From assembly GCF_001956855.1 (NCBI RefSeq), contig NZ_MTHD01000007.1, positions 62,001 through 126,000 of the forward strand: a stretch of DNA of 64,000 nucleotides. The letters are read 5' to 3'. Below the pieces are notes generated by a model. It was not told the DNA's origin, ran no database searches, and saw only the letters and a program-made list of their open reading frames with translations. Positions 7,550 to 54,678 of this stretch are shown in pieces. How positions within the stretch are numbered: the first letter of the stretch is position 1; the number at the start of each line of letters is the position of its first letter. The translations under genes were made by a program, and so were the position numbers. The DNA comes from Azonexus hydrophilus. Its GTDB lineage: Bacteria > Pseudomonadota > Gammaproteobacteria > Burkholderiales > Rhodocyclaceae.

Positions 7550-8155
7550 TCAGAGCATGCCGCGCTCGCGAATGAAATCGATCACCGTCGGCAGGCCGTG
7601 GCCGGTTTTCAGGTTGGTGAAGACGAAAGGACGTTCGCCGCGCTGGGCCTTGGCGTCGGTCGCCATGACTTCCAGCGAGGCACCGACCATCGGCGCCAGG
7701 TCGATCTTGTTGATCACCAGCAGGTCGGACTTGGTGATGCCGGGGCCGCCCTTGCGCGGAATCTTCTCACCGGCGGCGACGTCGATGACGTAGATGGTCA
7801 GGTCGGAGAGTTCCGGCGAGAAAGTCGCCGCCAGGTTGTCGCCACCGGATTCGACGAGGATCAGCTCGACGCCGGGGAAGGCACGCTGCAGCCGGTCGAC
7901 CGCTTCGAGGTTGATCGAGGCGTCCTCGCGGATCGCCGTGTGCGGGCAGCCGCCGGTTTCGACGCCGATGATCCGCTCCGGTGCCAGCGCCGAGTGATTG
8001 ACCAGGAACTTGGCGTCCTCGGCGGTGTAGATGTCGTTGGTGACCACGGCCATGTCGATCTGCTCGCGCAGCGCCTGGCACAGGGCGAGGGTCAGGGCGG
8101 TCTTGCCGGAACCGACGGGGCCGCCGATGCCGACTCTGAGGGCTTGTTTGCTCAT
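7550..8155 (-). CDS. ureG: Urease accessory GTPase UreG
   Basis: 201 residues from the ATG at 8155, which has AGGA just upstream; an in-frame ATG 57 bases earlier lies inside ureF and adds a non-conserved leader. P-loop [11 protein letters not shown] at residues ~8-18, the nickel/zinc-binding [13 protein letters not shown] (invariant CPH), [11 protein letters not shown], and NKIDLAP base-recognition motif are all present. UreG hydrolyses GTP to drive nickel delivery from UreE into the urease apoenzyme within the UreDFG complex. It is the last gene of the operon and starts 7 bases after ureF. Confidence 0.97.
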
Positions 8156-8162
8156 GTTTTTC

Positions 8163-8849
8163 CTAGGATCTGAAGAGACGGGAGTATTGGGTTTCGTGGC
8201 GGGCGCAGGCAATGGCGAAGGCCGGCGTGAAGTTCGACCATTCGCTTTCCGGCAGTTTCAGCGCGTCGACCGCAATATCCGGGATGCGCCCGCCGAGTTC
8301 GGCAAGCAGGCGCTGGCCGCTGGCCTGGCCGAGCGGCACTGCCTTCAGCGCAGCCATCACCTGGTTTTCCGCCCACGACCATAAATATGCGGTCAACGCC
8401 GCCGACGGCTCGATTTTCCATGCCGCGGCAATGCCCGACCAGCCGGTCGGAAAAGCGAGTTCGCCGAGGCCGGCCAGTGTTTCTTCCACGGTCGACAGCC
8501 CGGGATCGCGCAAATCGCGCACCAGCCGGTGCAACGAAAACCCCATCTGGGCCGTTTCCGCACGCAGTTCGGCGGATTCGCGACTGGCCAGGAATTCGGC
8601 GTTAAGGCGGGCAATTTCAGCGTTGTTTGCTGCGGTCCACGCATTCATCAGCGCAAAAACCAGCGGCGCTTCGTAGCGGCCGATGCCGTGTGCGAGCAGA
8701 TCGGCAATCCAGCGTCCGGCACTGGCTTCATCGCGGATGACGCCAGCTTCGACCGCCCATTCCAGGCCTTGCGAATAGGTGTAGGCGCCGACCGGCAGTG
8801 CCGGGCTGGCCAGTTGCAGCAGGCGGGCGAGTTGGAGCGCCGGAGGCAT
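8163..8849 (-). CDS. ureF: Urease accessory protein UreF
   Basis: 228 residues, all-helical family. The N-terminal [25 protein letters not shown] is the characteristic UreF opening (substrate-like SPxLPxGxYxYSxGLE). UreF bridges UreD and UreG in the nickel-insertion complex and acts as a fidelity factor for UreG GTP hydrolysis. The ATG lies one base after the stop of the small lodger gene upstream, an unusual neighbour in place of ureE. Composition is normal for the window from the ureF start onward. Confidence 0.95.
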
Positions 8850-8850
8850 A

Positions 8851-9135
8851 TTACGGTTTCGCTGCCGCGTCTAACGGTGCTTCGTACGCTCGATCTTGAC
8901 AGTACTTCAACGCTTTTCGCCCCGAGGGAACACCGTTTTTCATGTTTTTTGGGGCAATTGATGTGGTGTTTGACTCAGCTGCCATAATTTCACTAATCAG
9001 TTGTTCCGCTAATTTGCGCAGTTCATGGTCGTCTGATTGTGCTGCTACGGTATTTAGCTTGTTAACGATGCGGGCTCTTGGTGCCATCATTCCCAACGCT
9101 TCTATAGTTTCGCGATACCAATTTTTCCGACTCAT
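8851..9135 (-). CDS. 94-aa hypothetical protein inserted between ureE and ureF
   Basis: 94 residues starting MSRKNWYRETIEAL; the ATG at 9135 fits a gene beginning 10 bases after ureE. The first ~55 residues look helical (KLAEQLISEIMAAES), followed by a basic, Lys/Asn-rich segment. I recognise no domain. Base composition drops sharply here compared with ureE and ureF, including runs such as AATTTCAC and GAATTC, and codon use is unlike the neighbours, pointing to acquisition. It is not a known urease accessory gene. The longer frame upstream to 9261 is antisense-like sequence within ureE and was not used. Confidence 0.6.
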   Translation of the reverse strand: MSRKNWYRETIEALGMMAPRARIVNKLNTVAAQSDDHELRKLAEQLISEIMAAESNTTSIAPKNMKNGVPSGRKALKYCQDRAYEAPLDAAAKP

Positions 9136-9145
9136 TGAATTCTTT

Positions 9146-9676
9146 CTAGCACGGTTTGAATTCGTGGATTTTTGGCACCGACCGGTGTGGCCCATGGCCC
9201 GGGTTGTGCAGGTCGGCCGCGGGTTCGTCGCCATGATGCTGGTGACCACCGCCGTAGGCACCGGATTCCGGCTGGAACGGTGCCTCGGTTTCTCCGATCG
9301 TGCAGCCGAGGCCGCGCACCATGTCGGCGAGTACGTGGTCGGTCTGGAAGCGCAGCTTGCCGCCGTTGTCGGTTGGCAGGATGTGCACCGGCACGTGCCG
9401 GTTGCCGAGGTGGTAGGCGGCGCGGGCGAACAGCAGCGGGCTGTCGGCGACGGCCTCGATCAGTTTTTCCGGTGCGGCGAGAATTTCGACGACGGCCGAG
9501 CCGTCTTCGGCCGCCAGCTTGTCGCCGCCGTGCAGGTGGTCGCCGCGTTCGAGGAAGATGCCGGCTTCTTGGCCGGAGGCCAGCGTTACCTTGAGGCGGC
9601 TGCGTTTGCGTTCGTCGTAGGCGAGCGCCACCGAGTCGGTGGCGGGGGCATTGGTGCGTTGGTTGAGGATGAGCAT
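9146..9676 (-). CDS. ureE: Urease accessory nickel chaperone UreE
   Basis: 176 residues from the ATG at 9676 (MLILNQRT). The N-terminal domain includes LASGQEAGIFLERGDHLHGGD; the C-terminal metal-binding domain includes AYHLGNRHVPVHI, and a His-rich region GGGHQHHGDE. UreE dimers bind nickel and hand it to UreG. The last residues (about RSVPKIHEFKPC) fall in the low-GC zone shared with the following lodger gene and do not resemble a usual UreE tail, so the native C-terminus may have been replaced. The stop is 10 bases before that gene; the start is 2 bases after the GIY-YIG gene. Confidence 0.94.
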   Translation of the reverse strand: MLILNQRTNAPATDSVALAYDERKRSRLKVTLASGQEAGIFLERGDHLHGGDKLAAEDGSAVVEILAAPEKLIEAVADSPLLFARAAYHLGNRHVPVHILPTDNGGKLRFQTDHVLADMVRGLGCTIGETEAPFQPESGAYGGGHQHHGDEPAADLHNPGHGPHRSVPKIHEFKPC

Positions 9677-9678
9677 GA

Positions 9679-10404
9679 TTAAATATTGGCGTATCGGATT
9701 GGATTTTGACCGCTGAGTCCGACAGAGAAGCCGACATACATATTCCTTATCGACTCTGGTGCTACTCGTCCTTTGAACTCCCAGCGTCCGGATATATTGA
9801 CCGTCGACACCTCTCTTGTTGAGTAAGGCAAGGTACCGGCGGGAAACCAACTCTCAACCTGATAAACCTCTCGTACCACTCCTTGATAAACGGCAAAAGC
9901 AAATTCAACTTCGTCCCGTTTTGGGCCAATTTTCCAGACGCCGCGTGTGGCTTCGTACAACTCTTGAGAGGACATGTCGCTTCGGAAGCGTTTGTTGATA
10001 GTAATAAACAGTGCTTTGTGCACAACTTTGACCGGTTTGGCCGTGAGCATCGAGATGATTTCTTTCGAGTGGATTCGACCGAACGAACGGCTGTGCAAGC
10101 CTGAAACCTTGTTGGTTAATTGCATCTTGCCGATGAGATCAATTGCGGATGCTTCCACTAGGGCAGCCTCGGCGTCAGACAAACCGTAGCGGAGAATATC
10201 GATCCTGGGTTCCTGCCCTGCATCTCTCAGTTCACGAATTTTCTGCACCTTTTCCGTTTCCGACACATCTTTCAAATGGTCGAATGCTCGATTGCCGACG
10301 CCTTTGCCGATGTAAAACGGCGTGTTGTTTCTGGGGTCGATATACAGGTAGACATACGAGCCGAGAACGGCGGTGACCTCAGGCGGAAAACCGATGAATG
10401 CCAT
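9679..10404 (-). CDS. GIY-YIG nuclease-like protein (LEM-3/COG3680 type) inside the urease operon
   Basis: 241 residues. The N-terminal half is a GIY-YIG domain of the LEM-3-like type: GSYVYLYIDPRNNTPFYIGKG supplies the two tyrosine motifs (YVY and YIG), followed by GNRAFDHL with the expected Arg, and a Glu in EASAIDLIG. The C-terminal ~100 residues are unrecognised, with WKIGPKRDEVEFAFAVYQG. The gene lies 5 bases after ureC and 2 bases before ureE, on the same strand. GC is visibly lower than the flanking urease genes. A phage/defence nuclease or a repair-type structure-specific nuclease are both possible; it is not part of nickel-enzyme maturation. Confidence 0.75.
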   Translation of the reverse strand: MAFIGFPPEVTAVLGSYVYLYIDPRNNTPFYIGKGVGNRAFDHLKDVSETEKVQKIRELRDAGQEPRIDILRYGLSDAEAALVEASAIDLIGKMQLTNKVSGLHSRSFGRIHSKEIISMLTAKPVKVVHKALFITINKRFRSDMSSQELYEATRGVWKIGPKRDEVEFAFAVYQGVVREVYQVESWFPAGTLPYSTREVSTVNISGRWEFKGRVAPESIRNMYVGFSVGLSGQNPIRYANI

Positions 10405-10409
10405 ATCTG

Positions 10410-12131
10410 TCAGAACAGGAAGTAACGTTGGGCCAGCGGCAGTTCGGTCGCCGGTTCGCAGACCAGATGCACGCCGTCGGCCTTGACCACATAGGTTTCG
10501 GGATCGACGGTGATTTCCGGGGTGGCACCGTTGTGCACCATGTCGGATTTCTTGACCGTGCGTGTGCCGGAGACGGCGATCAGCGGTTTTTGCAGATTCA
10601 GCGCGTGGACCGCAGGATTTTTCAGCGCCGCCTGCGAGACGAAGGTGACCGAAGTCTTCAATGCCTTGCCGAAGCTGCCGAACATCGGCCGGTAATGCAC
10701 CGGTTGCGGCGTCGGGATCGAGGCGTTGGGATCACCCATCGCGGCGGCGGCGATCATGCCGCCTTTCAAAATCAGGCTCGGTTTGACGCCGAAGAAGGCC
10801 GGTTTCCACAGCACCAGGTCGGCCAGCTTGCCGACTTCGATCGAGCCGACGGTATGGGCGATGCCGTGCGTCAGTGCCGGGTTGATGGTGTATTTGGCAA
10901 TGTAGCGCTTGATGCGGAAGTTGTCGTGGCGGGCATTGTCTTCCGGCAGCGTGCCGCGTTGCAGCTTCATCTTGTGCGCCGCCTGCCAGGTGCGGATGAT
11001 GACCTCGCCGACTCGGCCCATGGCCTGCGAGTCGGAACTCATCATCGAGAAGACGCCCATGTCGTGCAGGATGTCTTCGGCGGCAATCGTCTCGCGGCGG
11101 ATGCGGCTTTCGGCAAAAGCGACGTCCTCGGCAATGCTCGGGTCGAGGTGGTGGCAAACCATCAGCATGTCGAGATGCTCGTCGATGGTATTCACCGTGT
11201 ACGGCATCGTCGGGTTGGTTGAACTGGGCAGCACGTTGGCCAGGCTGGTGGCCTTGATGATGTCCGGCGCGTGGCCGCCGCCGGCGCCTTCGGTGTGGAA
11301 GGTGTGGATGGTGCGGCCTTTGAAGGCGGCCAGCGTGGCTTCGACGAAGCCGGATTCGTTCAATGTGTCGGTGTGGATTGCGACCTGCACGTCCATCTCG
11401 TCGGCCACCGTCAGGCAGCAGTCGATGGCCGCCGGCGTCGTGCCCCAGTCCTCGTGCAGCTTGAGGCCAATCACACCGGCCTCGACCTGTTCGCGCAGGG
11501 CTGCCGGCAGGCTGGCGTTGCCCTTGCCGAGGAAGCCGAGGTTCATCGGGAAGGCTTCAGCGGCTTCGAGCATGCGGTGGATGTGCCACGGGCCGGGCGT
11601 GCAGGTGGTGGCATAGGTGCCGGTCGCCGGGCCGGTGCCGCCGCCGAGCATGGTGGTGACGCCGGACATCAGCGCTTCTTCGATCTGCTGCGGGCAGATG
11701 AAATGGATGTGGCTGTCGATGCCGCCGGCCGTGACGATCATGCCTTCGCCGGCGATGACCTCGGTGCCGGGGCCGACGATGATGCTGTTTTTGCCACTGA
11801 GGCCGGGCTGGATGTCCGGGTTGCCGGCCTTGCCGATGGCGGCGATGCGGCCGTCCTTCAGGCCGATGTCGGCCTTGACGATGCCGGTGACGGCGTCGAC
11901 GATCAGCGCGTTGGTAATGACCGTATCGGCAGTTTCGGCGGAGACGCGCTGGCTTTGCCCCATGCCGTCGCGGATGACCTTGCCGCCGCCGAATTTCACT
12001 TCCTCGCCGTAGATCGTGTAGTCCTTCTCGACCTCGATGATCAGTTCGGTATCGGCCAGGCGCAGGCGGTCGCCGGTCGTGGGGCCGAACATTTCGGCAT
12101 AAGCCTGACGGGTGATTTTATTGGCCATCAC
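10410..12131 (-). CDS. ureC: Urease alpha subunit
   Basis: 573 residues, full length for the catalytic subunit. Nickel ligands and catalytic residues are visible: HIHFICPQQ, the carbamylated lysine in [19 protein letters not shown], and the mobile flap [16 protein letters not shown]. UreC hydrolyses urea to ammonia and carbamate in the cytoplasm. The start is [18 protein letters not shown]; the first ATG overlaps the ureB stop, the second gives the usual MANKI form. In this window it would consume the urea released by allantoicase and ureidoglycolate lyase. Confidence 0.98.
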
Positions 12132-12433
12132 AGTGCTCCTTGAACGAGACCGCGGAAACCGTAAACCTTGCGTTCGCCGGCCAGTGCGACCAGTTGCACG
12201 GTGCGCGTCTGGCCCGGCTCGAAGCGCACGGCGGTGCCGGCGGCGATGTCGAGGCGGAAGCCACGGGCGGCATCGCGGTCGAAGCTCAGGCCAGCGTTGG
12301 TTTCAAAGAAGTGGTAATGCGAGCCGACCTGGATCGGGCGGTCGCCGGTGTTGGCCACCACGAGGGTGATTGTCGGCCGGCCGCTGTTCAATTCGAGTTC
12401 GCCGGGTTCGGCGAGGAGTTCTCCGGGGATCAT
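12128..12433 (-). CDS. ureB: Urease beta subunit
   Basis: 101 residues, normal for a separate bacterial beta subunit. [16 protein letters not shown] and [17 protein letters not shown] are the family hallmarks, and [18 protein letters not shown] closes the protein. It has a structural role in the (abc)3 urease. It overlaps ureC by four bases and starts 9 bases after ureA. Confidence 0.97.
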
Positions 12434-12442
12434 GTCAGCTCC

Positions 12443-12745
12443 TCAAACAATCGGGTTATGCACGGTGACCAGCTTGGTGCCGTCCGGGAAAGTGGCCTCG
12501 ACCTGGATATCCGGGATCATCTCGGCGATGCCGTCCATGACATCGGCGCGGGTCAGCACCTGGGTGCCGGCGTGCATCAGCTCGGCGACGGTTTTGCCTT
12601 CGCGGGCGCCTTCCATGATCGCGCAGGTGATCAGCGCCACGGCTTCCGGGTAATTCAGCTTCAGGCCCTTCGCCTGGCGCCGCTCGGCGAGCAGGCCGGC
12701 GGTGAAGATCAGCAACTTGTCCTTCTCTCTTGGTGTCAGTTCCAT
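12443..12745 (-). CDS. ureA: Urease gamma subunit
   Basis: 100 residues, the standard size. [27 protein letters not shown] and the C-terminal LVTVHNPI identify the gamma subunit. It begins 10 bases after the ureD stop, with a GGAGT Shine-Dalgarno. Confidence 0.97.
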
Positions 12746-12755
12746 GACGACTCCT

Positions 12756-13598
12756 TCAGGTATTCCAGATTCTGGGCAAAACGGCCGGTCGACCGCAGCA
12801 GGCCGGGCGCAGGATTTTCCATAGTTCGGCGAACCACAAGCGTGCGGCTTCGCTGTTGTCGCCGAGGTAGCGGGCGACGAGCAAGCCGGGCAGGGCGGTC
12901 AGCGCATGCGTTGCACCGTCGACCGGGGTAATGGCGCGGCAGCTGGCGAGCAGTTCCGGCGTGTGGGCGAAGGCGGCAAGCAAGGTGCCGCACACGGTTT
13001 TGCCGGCCCAGCCGGCCGGACTGTGCAGCATGGCGTCGTTGCCGGCAAAGCCGCCGCGTTCGATCCAGAGCGGCCGTTGTTCACGGTCAACCCGGTAAAA
13101 CAGGTCAAAACGCCCGTGCTCGAAACGCTCGCCGGCGGCGGTGCGGCCCAGGCAGAGAATGTCCCAGCCAATGAAAACGCTGTCGGCCGCGAGCGATACC
13201 CGGGTTTCCATGCGCGCGCGCGCACCGTTGAAGACGATGCTTTCTTGCGGCAGCCATTCGAGCACGGCGCCGGCTGCAACCGTGAAATCGATGTGCTGCG
13301 AGGCTTCCGCGCCGGCCGAGCGATACCACTTGCCGGCCCCGGGCGTGGTGATTTGTGCGCGGGCACCGGTGTCGACCGCAGCAGCGATGCGCAACTGGTC
13401 GCCACCGGCGATGCCCGAGGGCGGATGCAGCAGGATGGTCTGGCACACCGCATCGCCTTCCGGATACAGCGCCTTCTGCACGCGCAACGGGCCGAAATGC
13501 TGGTTCTCGCGCAATACCGTACGTTCGCCGGCGGTAGCAAAACGCAGTCGCAGGCTGGCCTGCCAGGTCGGCGGATTCAGGGGAAGGCGGGAATTCAT
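12756..13598 (-). CDS. ureD: Urease accessory protein UreD
   Basis: 280 residues from the ATG at 13598 (MNSRLPLN). Typical motifs are [23 protein letters not shown], and [11 protein letters not shown]. UreD (UreH) binds apo-urease and recruits UreF and UreG for nickel activation. It is the first gene of the operon, and its promoter must lie in the 203-base gap up to 13801. No nickel or urea transporter accompanies the cluster. Confidence 0.95.
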
Positions 13599-13801
13599 GG
13601 CGCGATTATGGGGCAGGCGGACGAAGCCGGGAATACGCAACAATACGCAGCCGGGCGGCGGACAGTTTTTTAGCTATAGTGCATAGGGGCATGCCCTAGG
13701 TGTATTCCACTGGCGTTGTGGCGTAATATGCCTGCAGCAAATTTCCGGGGAACAAAACTTCCCCTGCGCTGTTCCAATAGCGATTTGAGGGCGTAACAAT
13801 C
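13599..13801. promoter_or_regulatory. Divergent promoter region between ureD and the STAS-like gene
   Basis: 203 bases between the two outward-facing genes. It contains the 10-bp palindrome GGGCATGCCC (13687-13696) and an AT-richer segment TTTTTTAGCTATAGTGCAT (from about 13664) that could hold a promoter. No operator could be assigned to a named regulator. Confidence 0.35.
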
Positions 13802-50754: not shown

Positions 50755-51672
50755 TTACCCGTTAGGTTTGTGACAGGACTTTGTACCAGGTTTTAGTTTA
50801 AACGCCCCAGAGAAACTCTCGTAAACTCGCTTTGGCTCAGGCGAAGGGATCGAGTCTGTTGTACTGGCAAACAGTGAATAGAATTGCAAGAATCTCTTGC
50901 GGTCCTGATGATACTTCCCACTCCAGTTTTCCTTGACCGCAATCAGCCCTTGTACGGAAGTCTTACCACCAATCGCGGTACGCTCCAGAATGGCCCGAAA
51001 GACGATGTTATTCAAACTCTTAACGAAATCTCTGAGGATGTCCGCAGAAAGCTCTAGCTCAGCCCTCCCTAACCTAATCGGCTTCTCCAGGCAATCGTTA
51101 TGCTTCGCCAACCCCAACGCGACTGCGTTCTTGGTGCCAAGTTTCCCGAATCGATGGGTGCAGCAATGACGCAACTGACAAATTTTCTCAAACTCTTCGA
51201 AGTGCTTCTCCAAGTCCGAATAACTCGGCTGCAGTCCGATGAACTTATTCAGCGATTTTTTTATGTTGTCAGGGCTAACAAAAGAAGTCTCCTCTAATAG
51301 AGCCTCGGGAAGTAGTTCCTTATTGTTATGCACCGCTGCCGCGAAAGAAATTTGCTGGGACTCAACCGCCAATTTGGCCGTCTTGTCGATGTTTATGATG
51401 CCTCGAATCAAAGCTCTCATATAACTCTCGACGGCAGACATATAGCCCAGTAGAGCAATTGAAGCCAGTTCAGGCGAAATTTCCGGCAAAGACAACCATA
51501 CAAGATTTACGGAATTTGTATTCTTGATAAATTGGTCAATAGGCGACAGCTTTCCATCAGCAAAATTTCTGTCGAATAGAGTCACGGTGTCTAGAGTTTG
51601 CGACAGCCCCTTAGTGGTGGTGATTGCACCATAGTCAGCAGAAGCTCCTGCTGCGTGAAAGGAGTGGCTCAT
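50755..51672 (-). CDS. HEPN-like protein of the island cassette
   Basis: 305 residues, no signal or membrane segment. Residues ~60-180 look all-helical, and RHCCTHRFGKLG gives an R168-x4-H173 motif in the position expected of HEPN ribonucleases (RHxxxH after a helix of FEEFEKICQL). The rest is unrecognised, with an ALIRGIINID helix that also fits the HEPN fold. HEPN domains cleave RNA or act as regulators in many defence and toxin-antitoxin systems. It is the last gene of the cassette and overlaps the ATPase gene by four bases. Assignment rests on the motif only. Confidence 0.55.
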   Translation of the reverse strand: MSHSFHAAGASADYGAITTTKGLSQTLDTVTLFDRNFADGKLSPIDQFIKNTNSVNLVWLSLPEISPELASIALLGYMSAVESYMRALIRGIINIDKTAKLAVESQQISFAAAVHNNKELLPEALLEETSFVSPDNIKKSLNKFIGLQPSYSDLEKHFEEFEKICQLRHCCTHRFGKLGTKNAVALGLAKHNDCLEKPIRLGRAELELSADILRDFVKSLNNIVFRAILERTAIGGKTSVQGLIAVKENWSGKYHQDRKRFLQFYSLFASTTDSIPSPEPKRVYESFSGAFKLKPGTKSCHKPNG

Positions 51673-53405
51673 GACAGGAACTCATCGACAAAACCATCCA
51701 GCACGTCGATTATCTTGGCAGAACGCTTTTTCCCAATTCCATATATGGTAAGCAACTCCGCGCTGGGGTCCTGCTTTGCAAGATAGTCGCCAATCGTTTT
51801 GAATTTCGGAAGTGCCTCGGAAATCCTTTCCTTCTGCCACTTTGTCAACCCAGGAACCTCGGTTATCGCAATGGTGCAACATTCTGAGAATGTCGAGGAG
51901 GAAACAAGCTGACTGCCACAAGAGTGACAGAATTTCTGCTCTTCAGTCAGTCGCGCAGTGCCGCATTTAGCACACTCTGGCAAATCGACCTTAAGCTGAG
52001 CTACCTCCTCCGGTGCTAGCAGCGGAAGCCGCGCGCGAATTGGGTGCTTTGCAGATTTTCGCCGGATAACCTCGACTATCTGTTTGGGACTAGTCCCGCT
52101 CCGCCCCTGAGAGAAGGCCTTAACACCCAAAAGGGCTGCCGTATGCGGGACAAATCTAGAATAAATTCGCTCCGGAGAACCATGCTTAATTTCTCCCTGC
52201 TCGTAAATCAACCCAGCCTCAACAAGCAAATCAAGCATTCTTTTTACTAGCGGGGTAACGTCTTCCTTCAAGATTCCTATACTGATCTGCTTTTCGCCTT
52301 TTTCAGAAGAGAGTGCATTGGCATCCTTTACTGACACGGTCATCTGGTTAAGAAGCAGTTCACCAGCGCGAATAATTGTGGCAAATTTTGGAACCTTCTT
52401 TGCCAGCGAGCGATATTCGGCAAGCCGAAGACTCAGGTACTCCTGAACGATGGCGTTCACGCCTTGCTGAGACGTTCTAAAATTTCTCCTCTGATAATCC
52501 CAAATCATAGAGAGAAAGGCGCGCGGAATTCCAAAGGCTGCGTACATAAATAGCTCGACGACGTCCGCCGGCATATCCTTCAGATTTGCAACTCTCTTTT
52601 CTGCAATAGCCCCCATGACTTGGTCATAGTTATCGGAGTCAACTGGATGCCATACGGGAACAGGAAGAGCGTCCTGGCCAGCATGAAACCGGGGACTATA
52701 CTCCGTTGTGCCTGGGTAGACTGAAGCTTTGGGAGCGATATGGGACGACTTGAGTGCCCTAACGATGTCCAGAAATTCGACAAGATAATCCGGGGTCAAG
52801 GTCAGTGCCGCATCATCTAAAAGCAACACCGCAAATTTACGACGGGTCTCGGAGCGAACCGCATCAATTAGCTCCTTGACATCGTTAACCGATAACTTTC
52901 CTGAGACCTCTGCCTCTGATGGTGGTAACGGCTGCCCTCGCTCAAGCCGTGATACCAAGGACTGAAGAGTGGCCTTCTTTAAACCATAGCTATCAAAAAT
53001 CGTTTCGATGGCTGCAATAGCCGGTTTCCAACTGGTGGCTGCTTCGTATGTGCCGAGGCAAATTAATGCTAACACCCATGAGTGAAATAGTTCGGCGGGA
53101 TTGGGCCGTGAAGTGCGCAGAGGCTCAAGCCTGAAATACCGATTAAACGAAACGTAGATAGAAAAGGGCTGCGAGGCGTCATCGCGGCATGTTGCCCAAG
53201 CAAATCGCATTAAGTGCGTCTTGCCAGAACCGCGCGGACCAACCAGTGTACGCAATGACTTGTTCGTCAGTTCCTGAATTGCGTTCCGAAAGCTCTCCCC
53301 TTCTGGGGACGTTTCACTCTGTATGTCATCAAATGGAATGTAATCGGCGCGCTGTTCTAGCGCATCCTGAAGAGATGGCTCTTCGACTCTATTAGTTGAT
53401 TTCAT
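51669..53405 (-). CDS. P-loop ATPase with zinc ribbon and helix-hairpin-helix C-terminus
   Basis: 578 residues from the ATG at 53405, four bases after the methyltransferase stop. Walker A LVGPRGSGKTHLMRFAW (~56-63) and a DD Walker B FAVLLLDDAAL (~197-198) resemble ORC/STAND-like AAA ATPases. A linker leads to a CxxC...CxxC zinc ribbon (C478, C481, C493, C496) and two helix-hairpin-helix units (VPGLTKWQKERI; IYGIGKKRSAKII) that would bind nucleic acid. No helicase or nuclease motif is seen. It probably couples ATP use to sensing, linking the methyltransferase and the HEPN protein. Confidence 0.75.
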   Translation of the reverse strand: MKSTNRVEEPSLQDALEQRADYIPFDDIQSETSPEGESFRNAIQELTNKSLRTLVGPRGSGKTHLMRFAWATCRDDASQPFSIYVSFNRYFRLEPLRTSRPNPAELFHSWVLALICLGTYEAATSWKPAIAAIETIFDSYGLKKATLQSLVSRLERGQPLPPSEAEVSGKLSVNDVKELIDAVRSETRRKFAVLLLDDAALTLTPDYLVEFLDIVRALKSSHIAPKASVYPGTTEYSPRFHAGQDALPVPVWHPVDSDNYDQVMGAIAEKRVANLKDMPADVVELFMYAAFGIPRAFLSMIWDYQRRNFRTSQQGVNAIVQEYLSLRLAEYRSLAKKVPKFATIIRAGELLLNQMTVSVKDANALSSEKGEKQISIGILKEDVTPLVKRMLDLLVEAGLIYEQGEIKHGSPERIYSRFVPHTAALLGVKAFSQGRSGTSPKQIVEVIRRKSAKHPIRARLPLLAPEEVAQLKVDLPECAKCGTARLTEEQKFCHSCGSQLVSSSTFSECCTIAITEVPGLTKWQKERISEALPKFKTIGDYLAKQDPSAELLTIYGIGKKRSAKIIDVLDGFVDEFLS

Positions 53406-53409
53406 GATG

Positions 53410-54678
53410 CTAGATAGGGAACTGAAGCAGGTCGCACTTGGGCAATTGCCGCGCACTAACTCCATGCGAAACACGGGCTAGCCAATTTCTTCCTCTATTG
53501 CTTGTGAGGGCGTTAAAGATACGCATTGTCTGATCAGGGAGCGGGCGAATTACATAAACGCAGTCGGTTACCATCGCAGCACCCTTCGCGACAAGGCAAA
53601 TCTTTTTCTCTAAATTTCGCCCTACCCGCGCGAGTAGAATGTCACCAGCTTGGGCGTAAATTCCACAGGCAGGCAGGCTGCTATTAATGCCGAATTTTCT
53701 CCCGAAGGAGAATGAGCTTAATCCATCCTTTGGGAAGTCAGTAGTATGAAATGCGGGTGTAGTGAGCTGCAATCTCTCGCTGGATGATACGTTTCCGCGT
53801 CTAACAGAAGCGACCAAATCGACTAGCTTTACCGCATCTCGAGGCTGTCCGACAGGCTGGTAGGACATATCTAAACGGACAGCGGCATCTCGCGGGTCCA
53901 TCCAGAGAGGCGCACCCAATGTGCCATCGGGAAACATTTCTCGAGTGACTATCCCATCCGTCGAAGGCCGGTCTTTCGTCAGCACGAGAACATAGCCTTG
54001 GGCATCTGTACCCGCAAACGCAGTCCTTGGTAGTCGAATAACTGACTCGATTCGGTGGCACGCGAGTAAACACTCACGTAGCCCCCTGTGTTTTTTGCCT
54101 GACACGATGCTGTCCGGAACAATTATCCCAATGTGACCAGAAGTACGCACCAGTCGTAGGTTCTGTGCAAGGAAAAGAACCTCTCCTGTGATGTCATGTT
54201 TTGACGTGTAACATGCATCCAGACCAGCCCCCTTTAGTACGTCCTCAAATCCTTTTCGCCATTTCGGTCTAATGAATGGGGGATTGCAGATTGCCAGGTC
54301 AGAAAGCGCACTTTCCCCCCCAAGTACCGCAGGTAGATCGGGGCGTAATGCATCAACACTGAAATGCCGAATTACTCCGGTTTCCTGCGTTGACGCGAGG
54401 CGATTCAAGGCGATTTTTGATGCGGCGTCGATATCCACTGTTACGATTTCGGCATGCTTCCATGCCGAGCGAGCCGCCACCGACAATGCCCCACCCCCGC
54501 ATCCCAAATCTAAGACACGACTCGGGTCATTGGTGCGCAATTCATTTACCAGTACCTCACTTGCTAGAGCTGTCGTGTAATAACGCCCGAGTGTGTCAGA
54601 CTTTGAATTTCGGAAGGGGGCACCGATGATGGTCATGCTTACCGACTCGCAGGTAAAGAATGTTTCGAATAGAGCCAT
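53410..54678 (-). CDS. N6-adenine DNA methyltransferase with C-terminal recognition-type region
   Basis: 422 residues from the ATG at 54678 (MALFETFFT); an ATG at 54636 is the alternative and neither has a strong Shine-Dalgarno. The SAM site is RVLDLGCGGGALSVAA, and the catalytic motif is ICNPPFIRP (NPPF), the gamma-class N6-adenine form. The C-terminal ~170 residues (SVRRGNVSSSERLQ, GDILLARVGRNLEKKICLV, LARVSHGVSARQLPK) look like a HsdS-type target-recognition domain. No restriction endonuclease motif was found in it. First gene of a three-gene unit. Confidence 0.8.
   Translation of the reverse strand: MALFETFFTCESVSMTIIGAPFRNSKSDTLGRYYTTALASEVLVNELRTNDPSRVLDLGCGGGALSVAARSAWKHAEIVTVDIDAASKIALNRLASTQETGVIRHFSVDALRPDLPAVLGGESALSDLAICNPPFIRPKWRKGFEDVLKGAGLDACYTSKHDITGEVLFLAQNLRLVRTSGHIGIIVPDSIVSGKKHRGLRECLLACHRIESVIRLPRTAFAGTDAQGYVLVLTKDRPSTDGIVTREMFPDGTLGAPLWMDPRDAAVRLDMSYQPVGQPRDAVKLVDLVASVRRGNVSSSERLQLTTPAFHTTDFPKDGLSSFSFGRKFGINSSLPACGIYAQAGDILLARVGRNLEKKICLVAKGAAMVTDCVYVIRPLPDQTMRIFNALTSNRGRNWLARVSHGVSARQLPKCDLLQFPI

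Follow-up and report, generated by a model that had tools for sequence, protein, structure and literature searches.

The closest described systems are the CMoRE proteins. CMoRE, which is PD-T4-3 renamed, is described as a type IV restriction enzyme made up of one component, which binds DNA containing 5hmC or 5ghmC and cleaves it, restricts T-even phages, and forms a tetramer; representatives from E. coli O157:H7 and APEC O1 are deposited as PDB entries 9U75 and 9U7U (PMC12923530). The account defines a GIYxY-YIG motif with a catalytic Arg and a catalytic Glu, attributes to most, but not all, members an inserted acidic autoinhibitory loop that covers the active site, and presents the C-terminal domain as a distinct fold without homologues (PMC12923530). 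PD-T4-3 was also described to protect a native host (PMC12409345).

A likely relative of these proteins was found in the urease operon of Azonexus hydrophilus, which lies in the 64,000-nt stretch analyzed here and referred to as the window. The operon has the order ureD-ureA-ureB-ureC-NUC-ureE-X-ureF-ureG, where each urease gene was identified by Pfam, NUC is the gene under study, and X is a second ORF of the operon outside the urease set (Table 1). We consider it likely that NUC encodes a type IV (modification-dependent) restriction nuclease of the single-gene CMoRE/PD-T4-3 family and that it was acquired horizontally, was inserted exactly between ureC and ureE, and is probably expressed together with urease.

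Table 1. Features of the urease operon and of NUC, with positions in the window
Feature	Position	Strand	Remarks
NUC, CMoRE/PD-T4-3-like GIY-YIG nuclease, 241 aa	9679..10404	(-)	ATG start; Pfam, PADLOC, PDB, fold
NUC GIY-YIG domain, about residues 15-101			
NUC C-terminal modification-sensing domain (predicted), residues 124-241	9682..10035	(-)	matches CMoRE 131-257
ureC stop / NUC start junction, 5 nt	10405..10409	(-)	empty sister site is TGA-C-ATG
NUC stop / ureE start junction, 2 nt	9677..9678	(-)	
ureC, intact	10410..12131	(-)	Pfam
ureE, start preserved; final codon and stop unlike sister operons	9146..9676	(-)	Pfam
X, 94-aa ORF of no known family, between ureE and ureF	8851..9135	(-)	low GC, species-specific
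ureF	8163..8849	(-)	Pfam
ureG, 207 aa read from 8173	7550..8173	(-)	Pfam
ureB (12128-12433), ureA (12443-12745), ureD (12756-13643)	12128..13643	(-)	Pfam; spacing normal

An earlier sequence-only reading of this DNA had proposed a GIY-YIG-like gene between ureC and ureE, with gaps of 5 and 2 nt, and a 241-aa ORF with a Pfam match was indeed found there. Its observation of a lower GC content also holds, since NUC has a GC content of 49.8% and a GC3 of 55.6%, as compared to 63.6 and 85.3 for ureC and 66.9 and 81.8 for ureE. Mechanical ORF calling in the window gave 47 ORFs of 120 aa or longer, with a median GC3 of 75.3, and NUC has the fifth-lowest GC3 among them. Both ureC and ureE are intact by Pfam, in agreement with the claim that the insertion left its neighbors undisturbed. 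Pattern scans for promoters and terminators at NUC gave hits at chance level only; from its spacing, NUC is most likely coexpressed with urease. Elsewhere in the window, at 50755-53474 on the minus strand, there are two low-GC ORFs, namely, one of 601 aa with an ORC-CDC6-like match and one of 305 aa of no assigned family. PADLOC returned no match for this pair, which is possibly another acquired system.

Three sequence-based searches converge on the family of NUC. Pfam identified a LEM-3-like GIY-YIG domain (PF22945; E 7.6e-12, above the cut-off), the PADLOC profile PD-T4-3 (PDLC04031) matched residues 5-228 over profile positions 5-237 of 256 (E 7e-44), and a PDB sequence search at E<=1e-5 returned two matches, the CMoRE entries 9u75 and 9u7u (best E 1.7e-33). 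An NCBIfam scan gave two matches, both far below the cut-off. NUC carries Y17, Y19, Y31, R39, and E84, which correspond to the GIYxY-YIG motif and the catalytic Arg and Glu of CMoRE. When NUC was aligned with 53 relatives, Y19, Y31, and R39 were invariant in all 52 ungapped rows and E84 in all 53; because these residues do not vary among the relatives, NUC is not a chance ORF.

The structural data lead to the same family. An AlphaFold model, generated from 43 sequences (NUC and those 42 of the 53 relatives with ORFs of 225-285 aa), had a pLDDT of 91 and a pTM of 0.74, and a Foldseek search with this model at E<=0.001 retrieved four matches, all of them CMoRE chains. VIA-align superimposed the model onto CMoRE over 222 residues with a Z of 17.0 and an rmsd of 6.8 A, the latter value probably reflecting domain placement in the whole-protein alignment, and the identity in the structural alignment was 30-36%. 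With the same program, the GIY-YIG fold also matched the I-TevI catalytic domain (Z 9.3) and UvrC domains (Z 7.0-7.8). As for CMoRE, a single component is found, since the immediate neighbors of NUC are ureC and ureE. NUC is hence a probable new member of an already known family and, judging from its sequence and model, a predicted anti-phage nuclease.

The C-terminal part of the NUC model likewise has the fold of the CMoRE modification-sensing domain. Residues 124-241 modeled alone (pLDDT 94.5) aligned with 9u75_A over 113 residues, with a Z of 15.4 and an rmsd of 1.9 A. The tryptophans W157 and W186 do not vary across 44 sequences. This domain also occurs without a GIY-YIG domain, namely, in a 129-aa ORF at L279:1471-1857 (48% identity) and in a 135-aa ORF at L117:4965-5372 (51% identity). 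Five genomes from a single genus within the family (L002-L006) have it behind a different N-terminal region, with identities of 42-47%; the one such region that was scanned had no Pfam match. In the fold comparison, 45 of the 47 rows listed after three CMoRE entries corresponded to YTH, ASCH, VcaM4I, and two archaeal proteins, and the other two were DrmAB. These are weak matches, with Z only 4.6-6.0 at 3.3-4.2 A. YTH, ASCH, and EVE domains group together as PUA-like. The modeled fold of the sensor domain points to a PUA-like reader, at Z values too low for a claim. The sensor copies that lack the nuclease provide a testable lead on the recognition of modified phage DNA.

NUC differs from the crystallized CMoRE proteins in that it lacks the acidic loop, the corresponding segment being 8 residues shorter. 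This short form was observed in 27 of the 43 alignment rows, including NUC, and these sequences come from many phyla; at least three consecutive acidic residues in the loop segment were found in none of the 43 rows, NUC included. Since the loop is described for most but not all members (PMC12923530), NUC is retained as a family member belonging to a short-loop subgroup, and the frequency of the short loop argues for a subgroup trait rather than decay. The self/non-self control or the substrate of NUC may therefore differ from that of CMoRE. A short-loop CMoRE subgroup devoid of the published safety catch is a further testable lead on how modified phage DNA is recognized.

The urease operons of the genus document the insertion. 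In 76 genomes, UreE was found at 39 places in 38 genomes, and the ureC-ureE junction is visible at 38 of these 39 urease loci, L277 having no ureC. The sequence-only reading had suggested surveying related genomes for an uninterrupted junction; NUC is present at one of the 39 loci, that of the window, and at none of the 38 others. The sisters of the window operon, L242 and L256 (support of 0.968 in a FastTree phylogeny of 38 operons), have the empty junction TTC-TGAC-ATG, whereas the window reads TTC-TGACAGAT-ATG...TAATC-ATG. It follows that 732 nt were inserted between stop and start, with a one-base ambiguity. Neither a target duplication nor a matching repeat on the two sides of NUC was found at the junctions. 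As judged from the empty junctions of L242 and L256, NUC is a recent gain, made after the species had split from its sisters. NUC is thus neither conserved in place in the genus nor matched in composition to its surroundings, the two features that had been set against the reading as an insertion. With the empty sister alleles at hand, one can study how entire genes come to be placed in operon junctions without damage.

X, which the sequence-only reading did not mention, is the second low-GC insert of this operon; its GC3 of 44.7 is below that of NUC. Its insertion is less clean, since ureE has an altered final codon and stop, and a new ATG serves as the ureF start in place of the TTG that overlaps the ureE stop. 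X had no PADLOC match and no plasmid match, and an upstream-extended reading of 136 aa gave nothing above the cut-off in Pfam and NCBIfam. There was one weak match in PHROGs (E 0.0079) and another in a congener (E 8.8e-4, 37% over 51 residues), the latter located in L239 near an ORF that by eye resembles a serine recombinase.

Relatives of NUC were searched for in one genome per species (84,980 species), and 80 of 197 were kept. Among these 80, the best full-length matches, 58-66% identical, were three Chloroflexota sequences and one from a MAG. In a tree of 47 sequences, NUC grouped with those four (support of 100/95), followed by an Omnitrophota sequence (97/90). This grouping with Chloroflexota sequences indicates horizontal transfer, to which the low GC3 adds support, and the foreign origin proposed earlier, for which a phylogeny of the nuclease had been called for, is thereby upheld. 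A length filter kept L096 and ten other rows out of this tree. L096, from Acidithiobacillus, is a NUC copy with a broken reading frame that is 62% identical in its best segment, and given this sequence, the donor could be other than a chloroflexote.

Closer to the host, relatives are sparse. Matches of any kind (E<=1e-3) were detected in 4 of the 76 congeners, the genome of the window included, and the other three are not at urease. Beside NUC itself, these matches are 39%, 31%, and 29% identical, the last being partial; the 39% relative, from congener G695, is far from NUC in the tree, where it appears as L092. In the family, 13 of 249 genomes had a match at E<=1e-3, in several cases to one domain only, and in the order, 8 of 399 genomes had one at E<=1e-10. 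A scan of viral contigs with NUC alone detected no relative, and one with a two-sequence alignment detected 107, of which 80, mostly GIY-YIG-only matches, were kept.

The surroundings of the relatives were also inspected. For 53 of the 80 kept loci, a mechanical ORF caller provided 97 immediate neighbors of at least 100 aa; the 25 commonest families among these include the Pfam families Mrr_cat (4), HSDR_N (2), and ResIII (2), and PADLOC assigned mREase_IV to three neighbors, all of these being counts without control. Some relatives stand in defense surroundings, from which no conclusion is drawn. Urease was found beside none of 16 relatives, as judged by eye from the first 70 residues of the neighbors. 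At L064:2306-5878, a relative is located behind a pair that by eye is VapBC-like and just ahead of cobS, with a cobT-like gene further up; this is perhaps a parallel operon insertion.

NUC is one of many passenger genes at the urease junctions of the genus. Junctions were counted in the window and 38 congeneric loci, the operons from outside the genus (L030-L040) being left aside for their uncertain gene starts. Gaps of more than 200 nt were observed at 0 of 33 ureD-ureA, 1 of 36 ureA-ureB, and 0 of 36 ureB-ureC junctions (1 of 105 together), as compared to 11 of 38 ureC-ureE, 20 of 37 ureE-ureF, and 6 of 37 ureF-ureG junctions (37 of 112 together). Of the 36 operons in which ureC, ureE, ureF, and ureG were all seen, 23 have at least one such gap at the latter three junctions. 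Smaller gaps occur at ureA-ureB in five loci (69-144 nt), at ureB-ureC in two (105-106 nt), and at ureC-ureE in three further loci (90-129 nt without a gene). Passengers were named by Pfam on one representative per kind, and the rest were grouped by eye. Apart from NUC, the 11 at ureC-ureE consist of eight SMR transporters and two proteins for which FG-GAP, below the cut-off, was the only match. The 20 ureE-ureF inserts comprise seven with a tautomerase, five with YnfA, three with VOC proteins, the one with X, and four more; three of these four have a gene on the opposite strand (two outer-membrane-type proteins and one FliL), and the fourth is that of L268. A DUF559 gene is present in all six ureF-ureG inserts. 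Relatedness is common among the rows, and related rows may go back to a single insertion; the number of events is bounded by the distinct gene kinds and not by the rows.

The packing of these passengers is close. All 11 at ureC-ureE are codirectional, with starts at -1 to +7 nt relative to the ureC stop and with 2-5 nt between their ends and the ureE start, and the packing at ureE-ureF is looser, with 16-17 nt ahead of the tautomerases, for example. That only exact inserts are seen is explained by selection against disruptive ones, which does not account for how exact inserts arise. Two side observations concern other junctions. The DUF559 genes at ureF-ureG of L241, L243, L248, L257, L259, and L260 start with a repeat-like PPSPPLSGG...PSPDKGRxGEG stretch, and similar sequence is found in ureA-ureB or ureC-ureE gaps of L241, L257, L259, and L260. 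In addition, L255 has a 628-nt low-GC insert at ureA-ureB, in which an ORF of 205 aa gave no Pfam match.

The hypC-hypD-hypE junctions of the same genus, at 30 of 71 HypD places, served as a control. The hypC-hypD junction was interrupted in none of 30 loci; at hypD-hypE, 23 of 29 measured loci had a gap of more than 60 nt, 19 of them of more than 200 nt, and a 5-nt overlap was kept in 6 of 29 (within L283-L312). One dispersed repeat is common to 17 of the 23 hypD-hypE inserts, some of which contain N stretches, and the genome of the window (L296) also carries it there. Insertion at junctions is therefore a habit of the genus, and this control weakens the notion that urease is special in gathering passengers. 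Urease stands out by the variety of its codirectional, closely packed genes. Titles and abstract openings of the literature on homing endonucleases or defense genes in operons, on operon insertion, and on urease operons contained no like case, which does not imply absence from print.

A wider reading of these data is tentative and, in our view, has a minor chance of being correct. According to it, the maturation-gene junctions of urease in this genus would be plug-in expression sites that have taken up one unrelated single gene after another, an anti-phage nuclease included, to almost the exact base; the genes entering at ureC-ureE would have joined a translation relay, and no recombinase, flanking repeat, or target duplication is seen at NUC. 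The CMoRE sensor domain would, in this reading, be a reusable PUA-like (EVE/YTH/ASCH-type) reader of modified bases that is also used alone or behind another N-terminal region. If the plug-in reading is true, a defense gene would be expressed whenever urease is.

The alternatives to an acquired restriction nuclease differ in what NUC would do in this place. A free-standing homing endonuclease, that is, a selfish gene that spreads by cutting a ureC-ureE junction lacking it and being copied there, would fit the match to the I-TevI catalytic domain, the sporadic spread of the relatives across phyla, and the annotation of some jumbo-phage relatives as 'putative homing nuclease'. However, only 1 of 39 urease loci is occupied, none of the 16 inspected relatives has urease beside it, the C-terminal domain corresponds to the CMoRE sensor, and non-nuclease genes occupy the same junction equally exactly at ten other loci, which makes homing quite improbable. 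Recruitment of a repair nuclease, or of a urease- or nickel-related one, for a function linked to urea metabolism is very improbable: the in-operon position, the tight spacing, and the UvrC fold shared by the GIY-YIG domain (Z 7-7.8) agree with it, but NUC is absent from all other urease loci found in the genus (38), no urease link was seen by eye in the contexts of 16 relatives, and the only repair match in NCBIfam, excinuclease Cho, reached 11.2 of 367 bits, far below the cut-off. The sequence-only reading had suggested that NUC may be a mobile or selfish nuclease or a repair nuclease. Its view of a foreign, horizontally acquired gene that leaves its neighbors undisturbed stands, and the role it proposed gives way to that of an anti-phage restriction nuclease relative, as indicated by the defense profile, the PDB sequence matches, and the fold.

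It is unlikely that NUC is a neutral or decaying passenger that has lost its protective function. The recent low-GC character of the insert, the nearby second species-specific insert X, and the missing acidic loop could be taken in this sense, but the ORF is full length, its catalytic and invariant C-terminal residues are intact, and the same short loop is widespread in the family (27 of 43 rows, many phyla). An assembly artifact, in which a foreign gene was falsely joined into the operon, is hardly credible: the assembly has 17 contigs, but the insert is inside a contig of 134.7 kb, the genome is given as 100% complete with 0.09% contamination, NUC is joined exactly to both of its neighbors, and ten other loci carry different genes at this junction. 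Against the acquired CMoRE-like restriction nuclease itself count its neighbors, which by Pfam are urease and not defense genes, the absence of the acidic loop, and the identity of 30-36%, which does not fix the exact modified base.

As an acquired restriction nuclease, NUC would have entered the TGA-C-ATG junction by exact insertion following the split from the sister species. It would most likely be transcribed with urease and, as its spacing suggests, translated by termination-reinitiation, with ureE keeping a coupled start 2 nt after the NUC stop. The C-terminal domain would recognize modified bases, of the 5-hydroxymethyl or glucosyl type, in incoming phage DNA, which the N-terminal GIYxY-YIG domain would then cut, sparing the unmodified host DNA. 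A member of a single-gene defense family would then be found inside an operon of nitrogen metabolism.

Several known systems share features with NUC. Extra urease-cluster genes such as ureJ are, like NUC, genes beyond the usual set; ureJ is regarded as nickel-related, unlike NUC. The GIY-YIG domains of I-TevI and UvrC have the catalytic fold in common with NUC, and their second domains and functions are different. Relatives on mobile elements, for example, those of Escherichia phage PhiR41_1, Serratia jumbo phages, and Rhodococcus plasmid pCP135 (phrog_5356), some of which are annotated as homing nucleases, are the same two-domain protein, with identities to NUC of 31-46%. The closest system is CMoRE/PD-T4-3, which, like NUC, is a single gene for a GIYxY-YIG nuclease with a C-terminal sensing domain and has the same fold, also when compared domain by domain, whereas NUC is located inside a metabolic operon, is only 30-36% identical, and has no inserted acidic loop.
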